The notes beneath the pieces are model-generated. The model did no database searches and was not told where the DNA came from. It saw nothing but the letters and a program-made list of their open reading frames with translations. DNA of 51,893 nt, taken from Candidatus Uhrbacteria bacterium RIFOXYB12_FULL_58_10 (lineage in GTDB: Bacteria; Patescibacteriota; Patescibacteriia; UBA9934; GWF2-40-263). The position numbers and the translations under genes are program-made. Location: contig CALRHL010000005.1 of assembly GCA_943359455.1 (NCBI GenBank), positions 1-51,893 on the forward strand, given 5' to 3'. Shown in pieces: positions 4,029-50,540 of the stretch (positions within the stretch are counted from its first letter, which is position 1; each line of letters opens with the position of its first letter).

Positions 4029-4521
4029 ACACTCTGCCGTAAAGTGGATATTTTTTCAGGTGCTCACGGTGTTTATCGGCATCGCTACGTTTGCCTTTCT
4101 GCTTTTGGAACCGCACATCGAGGGAAGGAACGCACACGCAACGCTCCTTGAGATCTATTTCAAAGATCTCTTTCTGGTATATGTGTATATCGCGTCCATC
4201 CCATTTTTCGTGGTACTCTATCAATTGTTCAAGGTCCTGGATTATGCCGGACAGAATACGATATTCTCACAAGCGGCCGTAAACGCCGTAAGAATCATAA
4301 AGTATTGTGGGATGGCAATGATTGGTTTTGTCGCGGGGGGAGTCACCATTATTTTATTGGGTAATAGCGATGATCGACCTCCTGTGATTTTTATGGGTTC
4401 TCTCACCATGTTCGGTTCGATTGTGATTGCTGCCGCGGCGGGAAGGTTTGAGCAGATTTTTAAAAAAGGTTCGGGCGATCTTAGTTTTTGTCGATTACTG
4501 ATTATCAGTTATTGTAAGTGA
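3997..4521 (+). CDS. DUF2975-like four-helix membrane protein
   Basis: A 174-aa protein with four hydrophobic helices near residues 18-38, 57-80, 102-122 and 131-150. The spacing and the phrase VYIASIPFFVVLYQLFKVLDYA resemble DUF2975 proteins, which are often encoded next to small Xre-type regulators in other bacteria; no such regulator is seen here. GTG at 3997 starts inside the mnt gene (32-nt overlap); a start at GTG 4060 is also possible. The 3' end overlaps convergently by 27 nt with the next gene, and the last dozen residues look like run-on sequence. Function unknown. Confidence 0.6.
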   Translation: MSRFFQKVQNKHSAVKWIFFQVLTVFIGIATFAFLLLEPHIEGRNAHATLLEIYFKDLFLVYVYIASIPFFVVLYQLFKVLDYAGQNTIFSQAAVNAVRIIKYCGMAMIGFVAGGVTIILLGNSDDRPPVIFMGSLTMFGSIVIAAAAGRFEQIFKKGSGDLSFCRLLIISYCK

Positions 4522-11488: not shown

Positions 11489-12552
11489 AGTTGTCCGTAC
11501 GTCATTGCGAGCGAAGCGAAGCAATCTCTGGGGATTGCCGCGTCGGCTGATGCCTCCTCGCAATGACAAAGAGTGTTGAGAATTTTCTCAATTTCTGATC
11601 TCGACGAGGTCGTATGTAATTGTTCTCGAAAAAATTTCGCTCCAGGCACTCCTTTGAAATACCACGACAGATGTTTTCGAAAGGTGACGACTCCACGTTC
11701 GCCATATTGCTGACAATGGAGGTCGAGATGTTGCAAAACGGTTCGGACGCGTTCTTCCATGGTCACTACTCGTGCGACACGTCCAACAAGCACATCAGAA
11801 ATCTGTTCAAAGATCCATGGATTTCCGAGACCTCCGCGCGCGATTAAAAGTCCATCGCATCCAGAAACCTCGAGGGCTTTTGGAGCAAGCTCAGCTTTGT
11901 GGACATCTCCGTTGCACAAGACAGGAATTGAAACCGCTTCTTTTACACGCCGAATCATTTTCCAGTCTGCGACACCTGCATAGCCCTGACACTTTGTCCG
12001 TCCATGAACAGTAATCAGATCCGCTCCTGCATCTTCAAGAACTTTAGCAAATTCAATACAGTCAGTTGGATTTTCCCAACCAAGACGAATTTTGATCGAA
12101 AGTGGAACGTCGATAACCTCCTTCATCGCACGGACGATTTTTGTTGCGAGCTCTGGTTCTTTCATGAGCGCCGCACCGTTGAAGTTGTGTACGATCTTGT
12201 ACACTGGACATCCCATGTTCACATCAAACCCTTCCGGATGATGTTGCTCTGCAATAATTCGCGCTGATTCAGCCATGGTCGCTGGATCTGATCCAAAAAT
12301 TTGTTGAACCAATGGTCGTTCGTCAGGATGAATATCCGTCATCCCAAGTGTTTTATCATTGTGCCGAACCACAGCTTCAGACGACACCATTTCACGAAAA
12401 ACAACCAGACCAGACCCTACGACCCCTTCGACAAGCTCAGGGTCAAACGGTGAGCAATATCTCACCGTTTGACAAAACGCCGAATCGGTCATGTCGGCCA
12501 TCGGAGAGAGTGCTATAATAGGTTTCGGAAGCGTGTTCCAGTCCAGTTTCAT
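11485..12552 (-). CDS. dus: tRNA-dihydrouridine synthase with repeat-derived insertions
   Basis: A 355-aa FMN enzyme reducing uridines in tRNA D loops. Seen: MADMTDSAF, FREMVSSEAVV, DVNMGCPVYKIV with the catalytic cysteine region, KIRLGWENP, HGRTKCQGYAG and LCNGDV, all in family order. Two repeats are read in frame: about 13 residues around PFDPELVEG near residue 40, between MTDSAF and FREMVSSE where relatives are shorter, and the last roughly 25 residues (CHCEEASADAAIP...), which come from the dispersed repeat at 11501-11567. ATG 12552 lies 9 nt after a TAGACT box, so the mRNA may be leaderless. The stop overlaps the ATP-grasp start. Confidence 0.93.
   Translation of the reverse strand: MKLDWNTLPKPIIALSPMADMTDSAFCQTVRYCSPFDPELVEGVVGSGLVVFREMVSSEAVVRHNDKTLGMTDIHPDERPLVQQIFGSDPATMAESARIIAEQHHPEGFDVNMGCPVYKIVHNFNGAALMKEPELATKIVRAMKEVIDVPLSIKIRLGWENPTDCIEFAKVLEDAGADLITVHGRTKCQGYAGVADWKMIRRVKEAVSIPVLCNGDVHKAELAPKALEVSGCDGLLIARGGLGNPWIFEQISDVLVGRVARVVTMEERVRTVLQHLDLHCQQYGERGVVTFRKHLSWYFKGVPGAKFFREQLHTTSSRSEIEKILNTLCHCEEASADAAIPRDCFASLAMTYGQL
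11501..11567. repeat. 67-nt palindrome-ended repeat R2, copy 1 (inside dus 3' end)
   Basis: GTCATTGCGAG and CTCGCAATGAC form the ends; the interior includes AGCAATC and GATTGC arms. Related copy at 40432-40503. Here it is translated as the C-terminus of Dus and supplies the sequence just before the ATGA junction with the ATP-grasp gene. Confidence 0.85.
12424..12473. repeat. Palindromic insert in the 5' part of dus
   Basis: GTCAAACGGTGAG (12442-12454) and CTCACCGTTTGAC (12461-12473) form a perfect 13-bp stem with a 6-nt loop. It is preceded by CCCTTCGACAAGCTCAGGG, a widespread short dispersed repeat type. It is read in frame in dus as TVRYCSPFDPELVEG. Confidence 0.8.
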
Positions 12553-14612: not shown

Positions 14613-15455
14613 ATGGGAAGGTATAAAATTCCAATTACTAAACAGAAGTTGATCCGGCTCTACATTGATAAAAAACTTACGCCGCAGAAGATCGGAGAGT
14701 TGCTTGGGTGCAGTTTTGCGACAGTACGTAATAGAATGAAAGAGTTTGGGATAACGTTTCGTAGACCATCGATTGCTCGTCAGAGATTTGATAAAAAGGA
14801 CTTTAGCGGTGATCCTGTCGAAGAAGCATATCTGATCGGGTTTCGAGTCGGTGATTTAAATGTGTATGTTCCTAATCTCCAGACTTCAAATACACTTGTA
14901 GCACGTTGTCATACAACGGATATCCCGCAGGTGAAGCTCATGAAAGCAATTTTTTCTCAGTATGGAGCCGTTCGTGTGAGTAAGTCGATTCATGGATATT
15001 CTATTAATTGTTATTTGAATCGCTCTTTTGATTTTCTTCTGCCAAAAAAAAGACCAGAGCGAATCGATGGAGAGATGAAGGTCGTAGCGGCATTTGTTGC
15101 TGGATACGTGGATGCAGAAGGGAATTTTATCGTGAATCAAGGTAGGGGTCGCTTTAAGCTTGATTCGTATGATGTTGATGTATTATTTTGGATGGATAAT
15201 TGGTTGAAAAGACAGAATATTAAATCATTATTTCGTCAAATTGCCAGAAAAGGCGACACACAATATATTCGAGGAAAACTCGGTTATTTTCATGAAAATT
15301 TATGGAGGATAAATGTGAATGAGGCAAAATCACTCAAGAGATTTATTGGGTTTATTTTGCCTTATCTGAAACATTCACGTAGAATCCAACAAGCGAAGCA
15401 AATGTTGGCTAATATTGAAGCGAGAATTCGCTATGGATCAGTCAAAGATTCGTAA
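14613..15455 (+). CDS. Free-standing LAGLIDADG homing endonuclease with HTH
   Basis: A 280-aa protein. Residues 5-45 form a helix-turn-helix (KLTPQKIGELLGCSFATVRNR). Two LAGLIDADG helices follow: AYLIGFRVGDLNV (about 72-84) and FVAGYVDAEGNF (about 160-171), each with its acidic residue, so it is probably catalytically competent as a monomer. Such enzymes cut a long DNA site and spread themselves. It is not inside an intron or intein here; its 3' end overlaps the lepA start by 23 nt. ATG 14613 is chosen over codons upstream because the promoter overlaps them. Confidence 0.87.
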   Translation: MGRYKIPITKQKLIRLYIDKKLTPQKIGELLGCSFATVRNRMKEFGITFRRPSIARQRFDKKDFSGDPVEEAYLIGFRVGDLNVYVPNLQTSNTLVARCHTTDIPQVKLMKAIFSQYGAVRVSKSIHGYSINCYLNRSFDFLLPKKRPERIDGEMKVVAAFVAGYVDAEGNFIVNQGRGRFKLDSYDVDVLFWMDNWLKRQNIKSLFRQIARKGDTQYIRGKLGYFHENLWRINVNEAKSLKRFIGFILPYLKHSRRIQQAKQMLANIEARIRYGSVKDS

Positions 15456-17244
15456 CTTCTGCATTATTGCTCATGTAGATCACGGAAAATCCACGCTTGC
15501 GGATCGGCTTTTGGAGATGACGGGGACTGTGGAGAAACGAAAGATGAAAGAACAGTTGCTTGACTCGATGGATCTGGAACGTGAGAAGGGAATTACGATC
15601 AAACTAACACCGGCACGGATGGAGTACAAGGCGCATGTTCTCAATCTCATCGACACTCCTGGCCATGTCGATTTTACCTACGAAGTTTCTCGTTCTCTTG
15701 CCGCTGTGGAGGGAGCGATTTTGCTTGTGGATGCAGCACAAGGGGTTCAAGCGCAGACGATTGGAAATTTGTATCTCGCTCTTGGAGAAGACCTCACCAT
15801 TATTCCGGTGCTCAACAAGATCGATTTGCCTGCGGCAGATATTCCTCGTCGGACAGAGGAACTGGTGAAGTTGCTTGGATGCGATCCATCGGAGATTTTA
15901 CATGTGTCTGGAAAAACAGGGGATGGTGTTTCTGATCTGCTTGATGCGATCGTCGAGCGGATTCCTTGTCCAATAGGAGATGTTGACGCGGTGCCACGTG
16001 CGTTGGTTTTTGATTCTAAGTACGACGATTACAAAGGAGTGATTGCGTATGTGCGAGTCGTTGATGGAACATTTAAAAAAGGGGACAAAGTGACGATGAT
16101 GGCCACGTCAGCGATTGGGGAAATTTTGGAAATTGGGAAATTAACTCCAGGAATGGTCCCGACTGGCGAACTTGAGACGGGACAGATCGGCTACATCGTC
16201 ACAGGACTCCGTGATATCAAAGCCTGTCATGTTGGAGACACCATCACGACTCAACGACTTAATGACTCAACGACTGAAGGCCGTTCGACGGCCCAGTCAC
16301 TCCCCGGGTACAAACAGGTCAAGCCGATGGTTTATGCTGGAGTTTTTCCAAAAGAAGGAAACGACTTCGAACACTTGCGCGTGGGAATGGAACGTCTCAA
16401 GCTCAACGATGCCGCGCTCACATACGAACCAGAACATTCGCCTGCGCTCGGATATGGATTCCGTTGCGGGTTGCTTGGTATGTTGCATCTGGAGATTTTA
16501 AAGGAGCGGTTGCGCCGTGAGTTTAATCTTGATCTCATTGTAACCGTTCCGTCCGTGGCATACCGTGTGCTTCGGCAAGGAAAAGATGCTCTTGTGATTA
16601 AAAGTCCGTCGGAGCTTCCCGATCCTTCGTCGATTATTGCCATTGAAGAACCGTGGGCGAAGGTAGATCTCGTGTCGCCGACCGATTTTATTGGACCGGT
16701 TATGCAATTTTGCGTAGAGCGACGCGGGATTTATAAAGACACAGAATATTTATCACAACAACAATCCATCCTTCATTACGAAATGCCACTCGCGATGCTG
16801 ATTGTTGATTTTTACGATAAACTAAAGAGCATCACTTCTGGCTACGCGTCGATGAACTACGAGCTCGTTGATTATCGCACCGCCGACGTTGTTCGTCTCG
16901 ATATTCTCGTTGCCGAAGAAGGGGTCGAAGCTCTTTCCATGCTCACCTATCGTGACGAAGCTGAACGTGTTGGACGCCGTGTCCTCGCTTCTTTGAAAGA
17001 GTCCATTCCACCAGAATGGTTTGTGATAAAATTACAAGCAGCGATCGGAGGAAAGATTGTCGCGTCCGAACGCATCTCTGCTTTGCACAAAGACGTGACC
17101 GCAGGTTTATATGGAGGTGACGTGACTCGAAAACGCAAATTGCTTGATAAGCAAAAGAAAGGAAAGAAAAAAATGGCAGCTCTTGGAAAAGGCAGTGTCG
17201 ATATTCCGACCGACGCCTATTTGAATGTTTTGAAACGCGGATAA
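15433..17244 (+). CDS. lepA: Elongation factor 4 (LepA)
   Basis: A 603-aa translational GTPase that back-translocates or remodels stalled ribosomes. G motifs are AHVDHGKST (about 10-18), DTPGHVDF (about 76-83) and NKID (about 130-133). The LepA-specific C-terminal domain ends with RKRKLLDKQKKGKKKM. ATG 15433 matches the family N-terminus and lies inside the end of the endonuclease gene. Between CHVGDTIT and PGYKQVKPM about 10-15 residues derive from a short repeat (GACTCAACGACT twice, plus GGCCGTTCGACGGCC), in a loop where other LepA proteins are shorter. Confidence 0.96.
   Translation: MDQSKIRNFCIIAHVDHGKSTLADRLLEMTGTVEKRKMKEQLLDSMDLEREKGITIKLTPARMEYKAHVLNLIDTPGHVDFTYEVSRSLAAVEGAILLVDAAQGVQAQTIGNLYLALGEDLTIIPVLNKIDLPAADIPRRTEELVKLLGCDPSEILHVSGKTGDGVSDLLDAIVERIPCPIGDVDAVPRALVFDSKYDDYKGVIAYVRVVDGTFKKGDKVTMMATSAIGEILEIGKLTPGMVPTGELETGQIGYIVTGLRDIKACHVGDTITTQRLNDSTTEGRSTAQSLPGYKQVKPMVYAGVFPKEGNDFEHLRVGMERLKLNDAALTYEPEHSPALGYGFRCGLLGMLHLEILKERLRREFNLDLIVTVPSVAYRVLRQGKDALVIKSPSELPDPSSIIAIEEPWAKVDLVSPTDFIGPVMQFCVERRGIYKDTEYLSQQQSILHYEMPLAMLIVDFYDKLKSITSGYASMNYELVDYRTADVVRLDILVAEEGVEALSMLTYRDEAERVGRRVLASLKESIPPEWFVIKLQAAIGGKIVASERISALHKDVTAGLYGGDVTRKRKLLDKQKKGKKKMAALGKGSVDIPTDAYLNVLKRG
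16248..16298 (+). repeat. In-frame short repeat tract within lepA
   Basis: GACTCAACGACT at 16248-16259 and 16264-16275, followed by the palindrome GGCCGTTCGACGGCC (16279-16293). Similar ACTCAAC/ACTCAATC units occur in tgt and grpE. Confidence 0.65.
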
Positions 17245-23335: not shown

Positions 23336-23383
23336 TCCCCAACCTTCAATCCCCAACCCCAACTACCAACTACAAACCCCTCA

Positions 23384-23401: not shown

Positions 23402-24484
23402 ATGAGTTTCTTTGGAGGTAAAACTGCACATACCTATCTTGGAGTCGACATTGGCGCGTCTGGGCTAAAGGTTGTTGAGTTAGCAAATGAAAAAGGACGT
23501 GCAAAGCTCATGACGTACGGCTACACCGAACGTTTGCCTGGGCAGTCGATGATTTCTCCATTTGATGATCCGAAAGGAACAGGGGAGATGCTTGTGAAGT
23601 TGTGTAAAAAGTCTGGAGTGAAATCGAATAAAGTGATGGCTGCGCTTCCACTCACAAGTGTGTTTTCAGCGATCGTGAGTGTTCCACGCATGAAGCATGA
23701 AAAAGAAATGCAGCCATTGGTGGACGCGCAAGTTGGAAAGCTCACACCATTGCCGTTGTCGGAGATGGTGACATATTCTACGTATATTGACGGTTTAGAA
23801 AAGAAAATATCACAGGAGAAACCTTCGGACCATGTTCGAGTTCTTGTGACGGGAGCGGCGAAGTCGTTGGTGCAAAAGTATATTGAAATTTTTAGATTTG
23901 CAAAATTGGAGTTGCAGGCGATTGATACGGAGTCGTTTGCATTTGTGCGATCCTTGATTGGCAAGGATAAAAGTCCGATCGCTGTTTTGGATATCGGATC
24001 AACACGCACGAGTATCACAATTGTCGAAAAAGGAATTCCTGTATTGAATCGCTCCGTGAGTTTGGGTGGAACGGCTGTCACGAAACGCATCATGGATCAA
24101 ATGCATGTATCCGAAGTGCAGGCGGAGCAAATAAAACTTGATCTTGGAACGATGGCGGGGAGTAGTGCCGGAGGTGTTGGTGGCTTGCCGTCTGTTCTTG
24201 AAGCGGTGATGCAACCGATGCTCAATGAGATTAAATATGCGTTTCAGTTGTATGCAGGGATGGAATTGACCGAGTATAAAAAGGTTGAAAAGGTTGTGTT
24301 GACAGGTGGTTCTTCTCATCTCCCAAAGGTGATAGAATTCTTGAAAGAGTCGCTTAATTTGAATGTGTATCGTGGAGATCCATGGGCACGAGTTGTTTTT
24401 CCTGAGGATATGCGTCCAGCGCTTGATGAGATCGGGCCGAGGATGAGTGTGTCGATTGGGTTGGCGATGCGAGAAATCGAATGA
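23402..24484 (+). CDS. pilM: Type IV pilus assembly protein PilM
   Basis: A 360-aa actin-like cytoplasmic ATPase of the pilus alignment complex. It starts TYLGVDIGASGLKVVEL (phosphate-1 motif), has LDIGSTRTSITIV (phosphate-2 type) and VVLTGGSSHLPKVIEF (adenosine motif). In pili, PilM binds the PilN N-terminus; no pilN follows here, because a pilin gene starts in a 4-nt overlap. It is first gene of a three-gene pilus cluster, with a predicted leaderless start. Confidence 0.93.
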   Translation: MSFFGGKTAHTYLGVDIGASGLKVVELANEKGRAKLMTYGYTERLPGQSMISPFDDPKGTGEMLVKLCKKSGVKSNKVMAALPLTSVFSAIVSVPRMKHEKEMQPLVDAQVGKLTPLPLSEMVTYSTYIDGLEKKISQEKPSDHVRVLVTGAAKSLVQKYIEIFRFAKLELQAIDTESFAFVRSLIGKDKSPIAVLDIGSTRTSITIVEKGIPVLNRSVSLGGTAVTKRIMDQMHVSEVQAEQIKLDLGTMAGSSAGGVGGLPSVLEAVMQPMLNEIKYAFQLYAGMELTEYKKVEKVVLTGGSSHLPKVIEFLKESLNLNVYRGDPWARVVFPEDMRPALDEIGPRMSVSIGLAMREIE

Positions 24485-26475: not shown

Positions 26476-28503
<2,028 letters not shown>

Positions 28504-45668: not shown

Positions 45669-46175
45669 ATGACCGACGAATCATTAGACGTAAAAATTGA
45701 AACACCATCGTGTGAGAGATGTGACGGATATTTGACCGGATGGAAGCGAGCGCTTGCGGACTATGACAATCTCAAAAAAGATTTAGGGCGTGAAAGATCA
45801 GAAATGCGCCAGGCAGCGGTTGCGGACGCGGCGTCTAGAATGATTCCTGTCCTTGATAATTTCGACACAGCGGTGAAGTTTGTGCCAGAAGAGATTGATG
45901 ACAAACTGCGAAATTGGCTCATTGGTATCCTCTTTGTTCAAACTCAGCTCGAGGAAGCGCTTCGTCAAATGGGACTGGAATCGTTTGGAGAAGTTGGTGA
46001 AACATTTGACGCGAATCTCCACGATGCCGTCGGCGAATCTCCACCATCTGATTCAGATCAAAGATCTGATCAGCAAATCAGTGAAGTGATCGCCCGCGGG
46101 TGGAAATTTACTACCCGAATTATCCGTCCCGCAAAAGTTATCATTACCTCATCACTCAATCACTCAATCACTTAG
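45669..46175 (+). CDS. grpE: Nucleotide exchange factor GrpE
   Basis: A 168-aa co-chaperone that releases ADP from DnaK. It has the long helix with ALADYDNLKKDLGRERSEMR, the body VLDNFDTAVKF and the beta-domain GETFDANLHDAVGE...RGWKFTTRIIRPAKV. CERCDGY near the N-terminus replaces the usual acidic segment. The last residues (SSLNHSIT) come from an ACTCAATC repeat tract that continues past the stop towards dnaK. Member of the CIRCE operon. Confidence 0.93.
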   Translation: MTDESLDVKIETPSCERCDGYLTGWKRALADYDNLKKDLGRERSEMRQAAVADAASRMIPVLDNFDTAVKFVPEEIDDKLRNWLIGILFVQTQLEEALRQMGLESFGEVGETFDANLHDAVGESPPSDSDQRSDQQISEVIARGWKFTTRIIRPAKVIITSSLNHSIT

Positions 46176-46182
46176 TCACTCT
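46140..46182 (+). repeat. ACTCAATC-type repeat at the grpE 3' end
   Basis: TCATCACTCAATCACTCAATC then ACTTAGTCACTC: tandem units encoding the GrpE C-terminus and its stop, ending 5 nt before the dnaK ATG. The same unit occurs inside tgt (49930-49964). Confidence 0.7.
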
Positions 46183-46187
46183 TCTCT

Positions 46188-48056
46188 ATGCCAAAAATTC
46201 TTGGAATCGACCTTGGAACAACAAACTCTTGCATGGCCATTATTGAAGGTGGTCAACCAAAGGTTTTAGAAAATCGTGAAGGAGCGCGAACAACACCGTC
46301 GATGGTTGCGGTGACAAAGACGGGTGAGCGGTTGGTTGGTGCCCCAGCGAAACGTCAAGCGGTTACGAATGCAGAAAGTACTTTGTACTCGATCAAGCGT
46401 TTGATCGGGCGACGATTTGATGATGCCGAAGTGCAACGTGATTTGAAAATGATGCCGTATAAGATTGTCAAAAAAGGGGAAGGGGTGGCGATTACTATGT
46501 CTGGGAAGGACTATACGCCTGAAGAAATTTCCGCGATGATCCTGACAAAATTGAAGGCAGATGCAGAAGAAAAGCTTGGAGAGAAAATTACGCAAGCGGT
46601 TATTACCGTCCCTGCGTATTTTGATGATGCTCAGCGAGCCGCGACAAAGGTCGCTGGGGAGATTGCCGGACTTGAAGTGTTGCGCATTATCAACGAGCCA
46701 ACCGCCGCGGCCCTTGCGTACGGATTCGATAAAAAGAAGGGTGAGCAAATCATGGTGTACGACTTGGGGGGCGGAACGTTCGATGTGTCTGTTCTCGATG
46801 TTTCTGCTGACACCGTGGAAGTAAAAGCAACCAATGGTGACACGCATTTGGGCGGAGATGATTTTGATCGTCGTGTGATTGACTGGATCGTTGATGAGTT
46901 TCGCAAGCTTGAGGGAATTGATTTGAGTAAAGATCCGCTCGCGCTTCAACGTATAAAGGATGCGGCAGAACGTGCGAAGATTGAGTTGTCGACGGCACAA
47001 ACGACAGAAGTAAACCAGCCATTTATAACGTCAGATGCAAACGGTCCAAAACATTTGTCGCTCTCTTTGTCTCGTTCAAAGCTCGAAGAGCTTGTACATG
47101 ATCTTGTGGAAAAAACACTTGAGCCAGTGAAGCGTGCGTTATCAGATGCGAAAATGGATAAAGGTGCGATCAACGAAATTGTGATGGTTGGTGGAATGAC
47201 GCGCATGCCACTCGTGCAAAAAATGGTCGAGGATTATTTTGGAAAGAAACCGAATATTACGGTAAATCCAGACGAAGTCGTTGCGATCGGAGCGGCTGTG
47301 CAAGGTGGGGTCATGCAAGGCGAGGTAAAGGATGTTCTTTTGCTTGACGTCACTCCGTTGTCACTCGGAATTGAAACGATGGGTTCAGTGATGACGAAAT
47401 TGATTGAGCGCAACACGACCATCCCCACGTCGAAATCCCAAGTTTTTTCTACAGCTGCGGATAATCAAAACACCGTTGAGATTCATGTGCTCCAAGGAGA
47501 ACGTGGAATGGCTGGAGATAATAAAACTCTCGGACGATTCACTCTGTCCGGAATTCCGATGGCACCGCGTGGGGTTCCTCAAGTGGAAGTAAAATTTGAT
47601 ATTGACGCGAATGGGATTTTAAATGTGTCTGCGACCGATAAAGGGACAGGAGTTAGTCAGCAAATTACGATTACCGCATCGACAGGGTTGTCAAAAGATG
47701 AAGTTGAGCGCATGAAGCGTGATGCAGAATTGCATGCAGATGAAGATAAAAAGAAAAAAGAACAGATCGAGCATCGCAATTTAGCAGACACGATGGTGTA
47801 TACTGCGGAGAAGATGTTGAAGGATGTTGGGGACAAAGCGACAGTGGAGGAGAAAAAAGAGGTGGAAGAAAAGATTGTCGCGCTGAAGGCAGTAAAAGAT
47901 GGCGATGACCATGAAGCCATCAAGAAAGCAGCAGATGAGTTGTCTCTGGTGGCGCAAAAAGTTGGCGCGAAGCTGTATTCGCAAGAGAGTTCAAAGGAGC
48001 CACAGGAGACAAAAGCGACGGATGAACCGATTGATACGAAGGCGGAAGAGAAATAA
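46188..48056 (+). CDS. dnaK: Chaperone DnaK (Hsp70)
   Basis: A 622-aa ATP-dependent chaperone. The ATPase domain shows [13 protein letters not shown] (about 5-17), [29 protein letters not shown] and [11 protein letters not shown]. The substrate domain follows with [15 protein letters not shown] and [11 protein letters not shown], and the lid is helical. The C-terminus is acidic and Lys-rich and lacks the EEVD of eukaryotes, as expected. Third gene of the CIRCE operon; the start follows the repeat tract at the end of grpE. Confidence 0.98.
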
Positions 48057-48282: not shown

Positions 48283-48316
48283 AATAAAAAATGTAAAAGG
48301 TAAAAGGTAAAAGGGA
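48283..48316. repeat. Intergenic (G)TAAAAGG-type tract, copy 3
   Basis: AAAATAAAAAATG then GTAAAAG-GTAAAAG-GTAAAAGG: perfect heptamer units directly upstream of dnaJ. Confidence 0.65.
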
Positions 48317-48326
48317 AATATCGTCT

Positions 48327-49406: not shown

Positions 49407-50540
49407 GTGTTCGAACTTCTCGCTACAATTGGCAAAACTCGTCGTGGTCGTCTGACGTTACCGCACGGGGTCGTTGAGACTCCGTGCTTTATGCCGATCG
49501 CGACGAAAGGGGCTGTCAAGACACTTTCGAGTGCGGATGTTGAGTCGCTTGGCGCGTCCGTATTGCTGTCGAATACGTATCATCTTCTTTTACGTCCTGG
49601 AATGGATGGCATGAAAAAGCTAGGTGGACTTCATTCACTCATGAATTGGGACAGGCCAATTTTGACGGATTCTGGTGGATATCAGGTGTTTAGTTTGGCT
49701 AAGCTAAACAAAACGACGGAAGATGGGGTTACGTTTCAGTCGCATATTGATGGGAAGCGAATTCATCTAACACCTGAACTGTCGATGCAGATGCAACAGG
49801 TGATCGGTTCAGACATCATGATGCAGTTTGATGATGTCGCAGCAGGGGATTCGACACGGGAGCGGTACGAAGAGGCGATGGAGCGATCGCTGCGCTGGGC
49901 GGCGCGATGTAAAAAAGAATTTTCCAACACTCAATCACTCAATCACTCAACGACTCAGTCACTATTCGCCATTGTTCAGGGCGGGACGCATGAGGATCTG
50001 CGCCAACGATCTTTGGAAGGGTTGTTGGATATTGGTTTTGATGGATACGCGATCGGCGGACTTTCTGTTGGCGAGAAACGTGAGGATGCGTATCGTATTG
50101 CGGAGTTTGTTTGTGACAGACTTCCAACCGACAAGCCTCGCTATTTTATGGGTGGTGGGATGCCAGAAGAAATCGTCCACTACGTTTCCATCGGCGTCGA
50201 CATGTTCGACTGCGTTATTCCAACAAGAAACGCCCGCCACGGGACATTGTTTGTCTGGAATCAAGATCCGTCTACGATTGATTTTACCTTAACTACCAAC
50301 TACCAACTACCAATTCCCCCCTTCTACCGTAAACTCAACATCACCGCCGAGCCAAGCCAGTTCGATACAGGTCCGATCGATCCGTTCTGCGACTGTCTCA
50401 CTTGTAAGACAACATCTCGCGCCTATCTGCGCCATCTTTTCTCCGTCGGCGAAATGCTCGCCATGCGCCTCGCAACGATCCACAATTTGCGTTTTTACCT
50501 CCGTCTTATGGAAGCACTTCGAGCTTCCGTGGTAGAATAA
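49407..50540 (+). CDS. tgt: tRNA-guanine transglycosylase
   Basis: A 377-aa enzyme that exchanges guanine 34 for a queuosine precursor. It shows PCFMPIATKGAVK, LTDSGGYQVFSLAKL with the catalytic aspartate, MQFDDVAAGD, FAIVQGGTHEDLR, GGLSVGE, YFMGGGMPEEIV, the second Asp in FDCVIPTRNARHGTLF and the zinc site CDCLTC...H. GTG 49407 fits the family N-terminus. Two inserts are repeat-derived: NTQSLNHSTTQSL before FAIVQGG, and LTTNYQLPIPPF after HGTLFVWNQ. Both fall in loops. Confidence 0.95.
   Translation: MFELLATIGKTRRGRLTLPHGVVETPCFMPIATKGAVKTLSSADVESLGASVLLSNTYHLLLRPGMDGMKKLGGLHSLMNWDRPILTDSGGYQVFSLAKLNKTTEDGVTFQSHIDGKRIHLTPELSMQMQQVIGSDIMMQFDDVAAGDSTRERYEEAMERSLRWAARCKKEFSNTQSLNHSTTQSLFAIVQGGTHEDLRQRSLEGLLDIGFDGYAIGGLSVGEKREDAYRIAEFVCDRLPTDKPRYFMGGGMPEEIVHYVSIGVDMFDCVIPTRNARHGTLFVWNQDPSTIDFTLTTNYQLPIPPFYRKLNITAEPSQFDTGPIDPFCDCLTCKTTSRAYLRHLFSVGEMLAMRLATIHNLRFYLRLMEALRASVVE
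49930..49964 (+). repeat. In-frame ACTCAATC-type repeat in tgt
   Basis: ACTCAATC, ACTCAATC, ACTCAACG and ACTCAGTC in tandem, translated TQSLNHSTTQSL. Same unit as at the grpE 3' end. Confidence 0.75.
50287..50316 (+). repeat. In-frame CAACTAC repeat in tgt
   Basis: TTAACTACCAACTACCAACT and ACCAATTCC, translated LTTNYQLPIP. A similar CCAACTACCAACTAC tract lies intergenic before pilM (about 23356-23372). Confidence 0.65.
50530..50538 (+). promoter_or_regulatory. Extended -10 of a predicted leaderless promoter
   Basis: TGG-TAGAAT (hexamer 50533-50538) at the end of tgt, then 9 nt to the ATG at 50548. The following AAACTCCGT also occurs before the ATG of 5091-5414 and 7084-7407. Confidence 0.45.

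Follow-up and report, generated by a model that had tools for sequence, protein, structure and literature searches.

The short tandemly repeated repetitive (STRR) heptanucleotides of cyanobacteria are dispersed tandem arrays with a 7-nt unit, which in the classical cases lie chiefly in intergenic regions and RNA genes. Rickettsia palindromic elements, which are long palindromes of a selfish appearance, are inserted without disrupting the frame where housekeeping proteins tolerate them.

The TAACTGA direct repeats of Beggiatoaceae, Cyanobacteria, and some Bacteroidetes (MacGregor, 2015; PMC4679880) also have a 7-nt unit and occupy many sites, mostly just 5' of start codons. Some of these arrays lie in ORFs, at protein ends or outside assigned domains, their distribution across phyla is patchy, essential genes are located downstream, and a post-transcriptional function has been proposed for them (PMC4679880). 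The tandem repeats of Borgs were recently formed, are both genic and intergenic, keep the reading frame, and insert a low-complexity peptide, with the lengths of the in-gene units being divisible by three (PMC9879509).

In the present study, we analyzed a 1.07-Mb genome in 44 contigs (G000), starting from the window, the whole 51,893-nt stretch of contig C5. The organism belongs to the Patescibacteria and is a relative of Candidatus Uhrbacteria, since all 40-mers of the array locus that were tested in the family member G009 agree with the record of Candidatus Uhrbacteria UBA12432. Two short repeats are dispersed in this genome, the octamer ACTCAATC (period 8) and the heptamer AACTACC (period 7). 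Similar to the TAACTGA repeats, they form short head-to-tail arrays of units of approximately 7 nt (here also 8), recur at numerous unrelated loci far in excess of chance, and are patchy across phyla; they differ in the units themselves (7 and 8 nt, TAACTGA being absent from the top recurrent 7-mers of the 445-kb survey described below), in lacking stops in every frame when read in gene sense, in the many core enzymes that are hit, and in residing in a reduced Patescibacteria genome. The cyanobacterial STRR share the dispersed tandem arrangement, but not the units. As in Borgs, the arrays are genic and intergenic, keep the frame, and add a low-complexity peptide, whereas here the unit lengths are 7 and 8 nt and many sites carry the same sequence. 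The in-frame location at tolerant sites of housekeeping proteins resembles Rickettsia palindromic elements; however, the present arrays are simple tandem repeats, even though palindromic repeats do occupy the same Tgt loop in relatives. The class of repeat is known from other bacteria, and what is new, to our knowledge, is the units and their unusual load within core enzymes. In the open-access PubMed Central literature, we found neither the units nor their peptides, nor, with the terms tried, a description of such repeats in CPR bacteria.

Abundance of the two units

Regarding the genome-wide count suggested in the initial annotation, which had described a single satellite motif, octamer dimers with up to 2 mismatches were found at 38 places in the whole genome versus 0 for the reversed pattern, and heptamer dimers with up to 1 mismatch at 35 places versus 1. 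Overlapping matches within one array are counted separately in both figures, the number of distinct arrays being roughly a dozen and a half per unit, and a few of the 38 octamer places, matched with two mismatches, may be due to chance. An equal frequency of the unit in shuffled sequence, the outcome that would have spoken against that annotation, was not observed; the window contains 6 octamer matches at up to 3 mismatches versus 1.04 +/- 1.10 after shuffling, and none of 100 shuffles reached 6. A chance origin is ruled out by these shuffles together with the reversed-pattern controls. The heptamer, the concentration of arrays before start codons, and the presence of the octamer in distant phyla, all described below, had been missed.

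A unit-blind survey, in which all perfect dimers of 5-12 nt were counted in a 445-kb sample (approximately 42% of the genome), gave the same two units: the octamer (as AATCACTC) accounted for 6 of the 16 8-mer dimer arrays and AACTACC for 8 of the 51 7-mer arrays. Most other units in this sample occurred once, and only these two 7-8-mers recurred strongly.

An assembly artefact is unlikely considering that reading frames are kept, that the Tgt array is common to the congener G004, and that the octamer is present in isolate genomes. One end of contig C42 falls within an octamer array (4175-4217), so longer arrays may break the assembly.

Arrays in tgt, grpE, and lepA

The features of the window that are discussed here, all on the forward strand, are as follows.

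49407..50540, forward strand: tgt (queuine tRNA-ribosyltransferase), named from its sequence; carries two arrays
49928..49964, forward strand: octamer array in tgt, in frame, 4.5 units (TRF, translation, family alignment)
about 50289..50314, forward strand: heptamer array in tgt (AACTACC, 3.3 units), in frame (TRF, pattern search, family alignment)
45669..46175, forward strand: grpE, named from its sequence
46149..46186, forward strand: octamer array spanning the 3' end of grpE and the gap to dnaK (sequence, translation)
46188..48056, forward strand: presumed dnaK, 3' of the grpE-end array (ORF list)
15415..17244, forward strand: lepA, named from its sequence
16244..16275, forward strand: diverged octamer array (ACGACTCA) in lepA, in frame (TRF, sequence, ortholog comparison)
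16276..16304, forward strand: hairpin AGGCCGTTCGACGGCCC followed by the octamer-like CAGTCACTC, within the lepA insertion (sequence)
23359..23377, forward strand: heptamer array in a leader, 25 nt 5' of the ATG that opens the ORF at 23402 (TRF, pattern search)

The Zn-ligand region of Tgt (CDCLTC...H) is intact. The octamer array of this gene, with the units ACTCAATC ACTCAATC ACTCAACG ACTCAGTC, is translated into TQSLNHSTTQS in a loop flanked by MERSLRWA and LFAIVQ (loop 1), which in the family alignment is 8 aa longer than in short-loop members such as G021 and five residues longer than in the best PDB match. In the same alignment, loop 1 of G004 reads TPRLNHSTTQS, a diverged version of the array, which is probably older than the split between G000 and G004 because it is present in both. 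The second array is translated into TTNYQLP (loop 2), and its heptamer repeat was not seen in any of the family's other Tgt sequences that span this position in the alignment; G027 carries an unrelated insert, PSTGSGQ, there.

Loop 1 (window 49906-49968; family flanks MERSLRWA/LFGIVQ) contains inserts in about half of the family genomes, and these mostly belong to one of several unrelated types of dispersed repeat. At least six different repeat types were distinguished at this loop. They comprise (CCAACTC)x4 in G005, which is a sister of the heptamer, a palindrome (CHSERSEESVRSFAGAQDD) in G015, a common MSPGHRTVAAVPSDT-like element in G017, G020, G026, and G034, LPLSKGELEGV-like inserts in G014 and G028, LPLPRGGV in G022, a CCCTCCTCCCTCA repeat in G025, a hairpin plus octamer in G027, and a 100-nt repeat in G003, another copy of which is present in the sample of that genome. 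When the relatives' own genomes were sampled at 50-390 kb, extra copies of the inserts of G005, G015, G017, G027, and G034 were detected, with none for the reversed controls, and the evidence that the insert is a dispersed repeat was weaker for G014, G022, and G025. The G027 hairpin and octamer form one composite that occurs at two places, in tgt and at 12417-12497 of another sample stretch.

All three housekeeping genes for which tandem units had been annotated do contain them, but the array assigned to GrpE belongs mainly to the grpE-dnaK junction and that of LepA has diverged. The grpE array (units ATCACTCA) encodes the C-terminal residues SSLNHSIT and extends beyond the stop codon (46175) nearly to the ATG at 46188 of the next ORF, which we take to be dnaK from the operon order and its N-terminal sequence. 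The corresponding gap of the congener G003 contains a degenerate CACT-N4 array and that of G004 none. In lepA, the units ACGACTCA ACGACTTA ATGACTCA ACGACTGA lie at 16246-16275, and the whole diverged array, which includes a small hairpin (GGCCGTTCGACGGCC), spans 16244-16304. Compared with G003 and G004, LepA has exactly 8 additional residues in this loop (24 nt, three units). The array was absent from all 29 other family genomes compared, and since it was found in none of them, comparisons of sequences suggest that it most likely arose in the G000 lineage.

Host genes, orientation, and turnover

According to NCBIfam, arrays are also located in the genes for IleS, MltG, pyruvate kinase, DnaE, ArgS, MurE, RsmA, AtpG, a NADH-dependent reductase, and a UvrD/PcrA-like helicase; RadA, Tgt, LepA, and GrpE were named as hosts from their sequence. 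The view that the insertions lie at loops or termini was supported, with one motif being found at many unrelated sites. These hosts are essential housekeeping genes in which the frame is kept, and the arrays were, therefore, not regarded as contingency loci of the phase-variable SSR kind.

By simple ORF rules, 11 in-gene arrays of this genome are in the sense orientation versus 1 antisense. The single clear antisense host is RadA, the irregular units of which avoid stop codons. Since 7 and 8 are not multiples of three, all three frames give the same peptide, and in the sense orientation this peptide is free of stops in each of them (TQSLNHSI for the octamer and NYQLPTT for the heptamer), whereas the complement contains TGA or TAG.

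Comparisons of congeners indicated turnover. IleS has the ACTCAATC-type octamer in G000, (CACTCCAC)x4 at the same place in G004, and none in G003. At the pyruvate kinase site, the octamer of G000 is matched by an empty site in G003 and a different repeat in G004, and at one shared position of DnaE a heptamer array in G000 corresponds to an octamer array in G004. Judging from these alignments, sites gain, lose, and swap arrays within one genus, and arrays appear to be locally made uniform. The insert of G004 at the pyruvate kinase site is the repeat-like AERSEKAYKPSQPSKPLQHS with a AAGGCTTATAAGCC palindrome.

An active process that generates or spreads the motif, as the initial annotation proposed, is a natural reading of these results, and the ortholog alignment it recommended is in line with this for the lepA array, which is most likely lineage-specific (0 of 29 other family genomes). 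It does not hold that all sites are recent and independent because G004 has the diverged tgt array and an octamer at the same place in IleS.

Origin of the arrays

We consider it probable that the arrays are dispersed short tandem repeats of the STRR/TAACTGA kind that were widely seeded, grown by slippage, and filtered by translation. In this model, 2-3 units would first be copied elsewhere in the genome as a seed, with template switching and error-prone end joining in repair as examples of the route, and replication slippage would then lengthen the seeds and make the arrays uniform. Most insertions would be purged by selection, a translational filter being supported by the orientation and position counts. 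The survivors would be of two kinds: (a) those in protein termini and surface loops that have a frame-neutral net length and run in the one direction free of stops in each of the three frames, and (b) those in leaders that lack G and directly precede an ATG, in the orientation without GTG/TTG starts or stops, in a genome with weak Shine-Dalgarno signals. The Shine-Dalgarno signal before ORF starts is weak in G000 (0.20 versus 0.10 in the control), and no enrichment was detected in samples of G003 and G004. The peptides encoded by the repeats are probably tolerated filler rather than functional parts. Against this explanation, copying and length change are steps that we infer, and the few pairs of empty and filled sites define no insertion junction. 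Slippage alone does not explain the same octamer in distant phyla.

A genome of approximately 1 Mb tolerates in-frame repeats in DNA polymerase, tRNA synthetases, RsmA, LepA, and Tgt, and its arrays chart where essential proteins naturally permit insertions. Empty and filled orthologs offer a system for studying the birth and spread of bacterial 7-8-nt satellites, and the spread of such repeats can be tested directly, since one exact octamer recurs in many phyla.

The leader arrays may instead be an element for translation or mRNA binding, i.e., a post-transcriptional regulon, with the in-gene copies as side effects of its spreading, which we regard as rather unlikely. Eight of the 17 heptamer arrays are intergenic, and by simple ORF rules all 8 lie 7-28 nt 5' of a co-oriented ATG; a sense ATG is present within 30 nt in 8/8 arrays versus 27/246 points chosen at random between genes (Fisher p=6e-8). 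This bias is repeated by the octamer in other phyla, with 17 sense versus 3 antisense arrays within 30 nt of starts (random points, 52/620), and the layout matches that of the TAACTGA repeats (PMC4679880). Leader placement could reflect a function, as MacGregor proposed for TAACTGA, beyond mere tolerance. However, sites differ among congeners with no common heptamer leader demonstrated, about half of the arrays are within genes, and avoidance of the starts and stops of the other orientation explains the bias without a function.

The distribution of the octamer brings in a dedicated sequence-specific process, in which a templating RNA or DNA and an enzyme would seed both units and which would be patchily common to phyla; we hold this to be unlikely. 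If true, it would account for the identical octamers in Patescibacteria, Bacteroidota, Chloroflexota, and Acidobacteriota. Within the genus, family, and order (59 genomes, G000 included), two exact octamers occurred in only 4, the heptamer pair was likewise found in few, and none besides G000 among 379 genomes of the phylum had the octamer pair. Among the GTDB species genomes, which were scanned for this octamer, at least 117 stretches contained exact (ACTCAATC)x3, against a chance expectation of ~0.002 from rough arithmetic on the size of the collection. The matches listed fall in Bacteroidota, Chloroflexota, Acidobacteriota, and Proteobacteria, as well as in other groups. Isolates of Emticicia, Pontibacter, and Cloacibacterium are included, as are MAGs of Anaerolineae, Betaproteobacteria, Thermoanaerobaculia, Omnitrophota, and KSB1. 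One Thermoanaerobaculia MAG has, at several sites, a short palindrome (CGACGCCGTAGGCGGCGTATG and variants) followed by AATC(ACTCAATC)n and often then by ACTCAATG, the ATG of which may be a start codon.

It is quite improbable that a REP-associated (Y1) transposase mobilizes a hairpin element to which the arrays belong, as its tail or otherwise. A hairpin lies within the lepA array, hairpin-octamer composites occur at two places in G027 and several in the Thermoanaerobaculia MAG, and G000 has two Y1_Tnp (PF01797) matches above the cut-off. These matches are weak (about 32 bits), most arrays of the genome have no adjacent hairpin, and Y1 matches occur in 22 of the 33 family genomes, mostly without octamer arrays. 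The Y1 transposase is unlikely to be the mover, its matches being weak and uncorrelated with arrays, and the arrays were also not assigned to the REP/RAYT palindromic units; the unit is non-palindromic and a hairpin accompanies it at some sites only.

Independent slippage at chance seeds, without spreading, draws on a common and well-known process and on the several kinds of tandem unit in this genome, but appears very unlikely: most other 7- and 8-mers occur once, whereas these two occur 6-8 times in the 445-kb sample and more often in the whole genome. Horizontal import of array-carrying DNA, e.g., by phage, from Bacteroidota or other hosts would agree with the occurrence of three exact octamers in Bacteroidota, Chloroflexota, Acidobacteriota, Proteobacteria, and other groups (at least 117 stretches), but has hardly any probability, as the arrays lie within native orthologs of otherwise normal family similarity with native flanks at the sites examined, and a phage vector was rejected since arrays are almost absent from IMG/VR (only 5 and 8 stretches with three exact units).

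Intergenic octamer arrays on contigs C10, C37, and C39 form hairpin-like inverted pairs (AGTGACGTAGTGACG...CACTATATCACTC). The window contains further small tandem arrays at 26807-26834 (CTTCGGATTTCGAA x2) and 48288-48318 (AAAAGGT x4).
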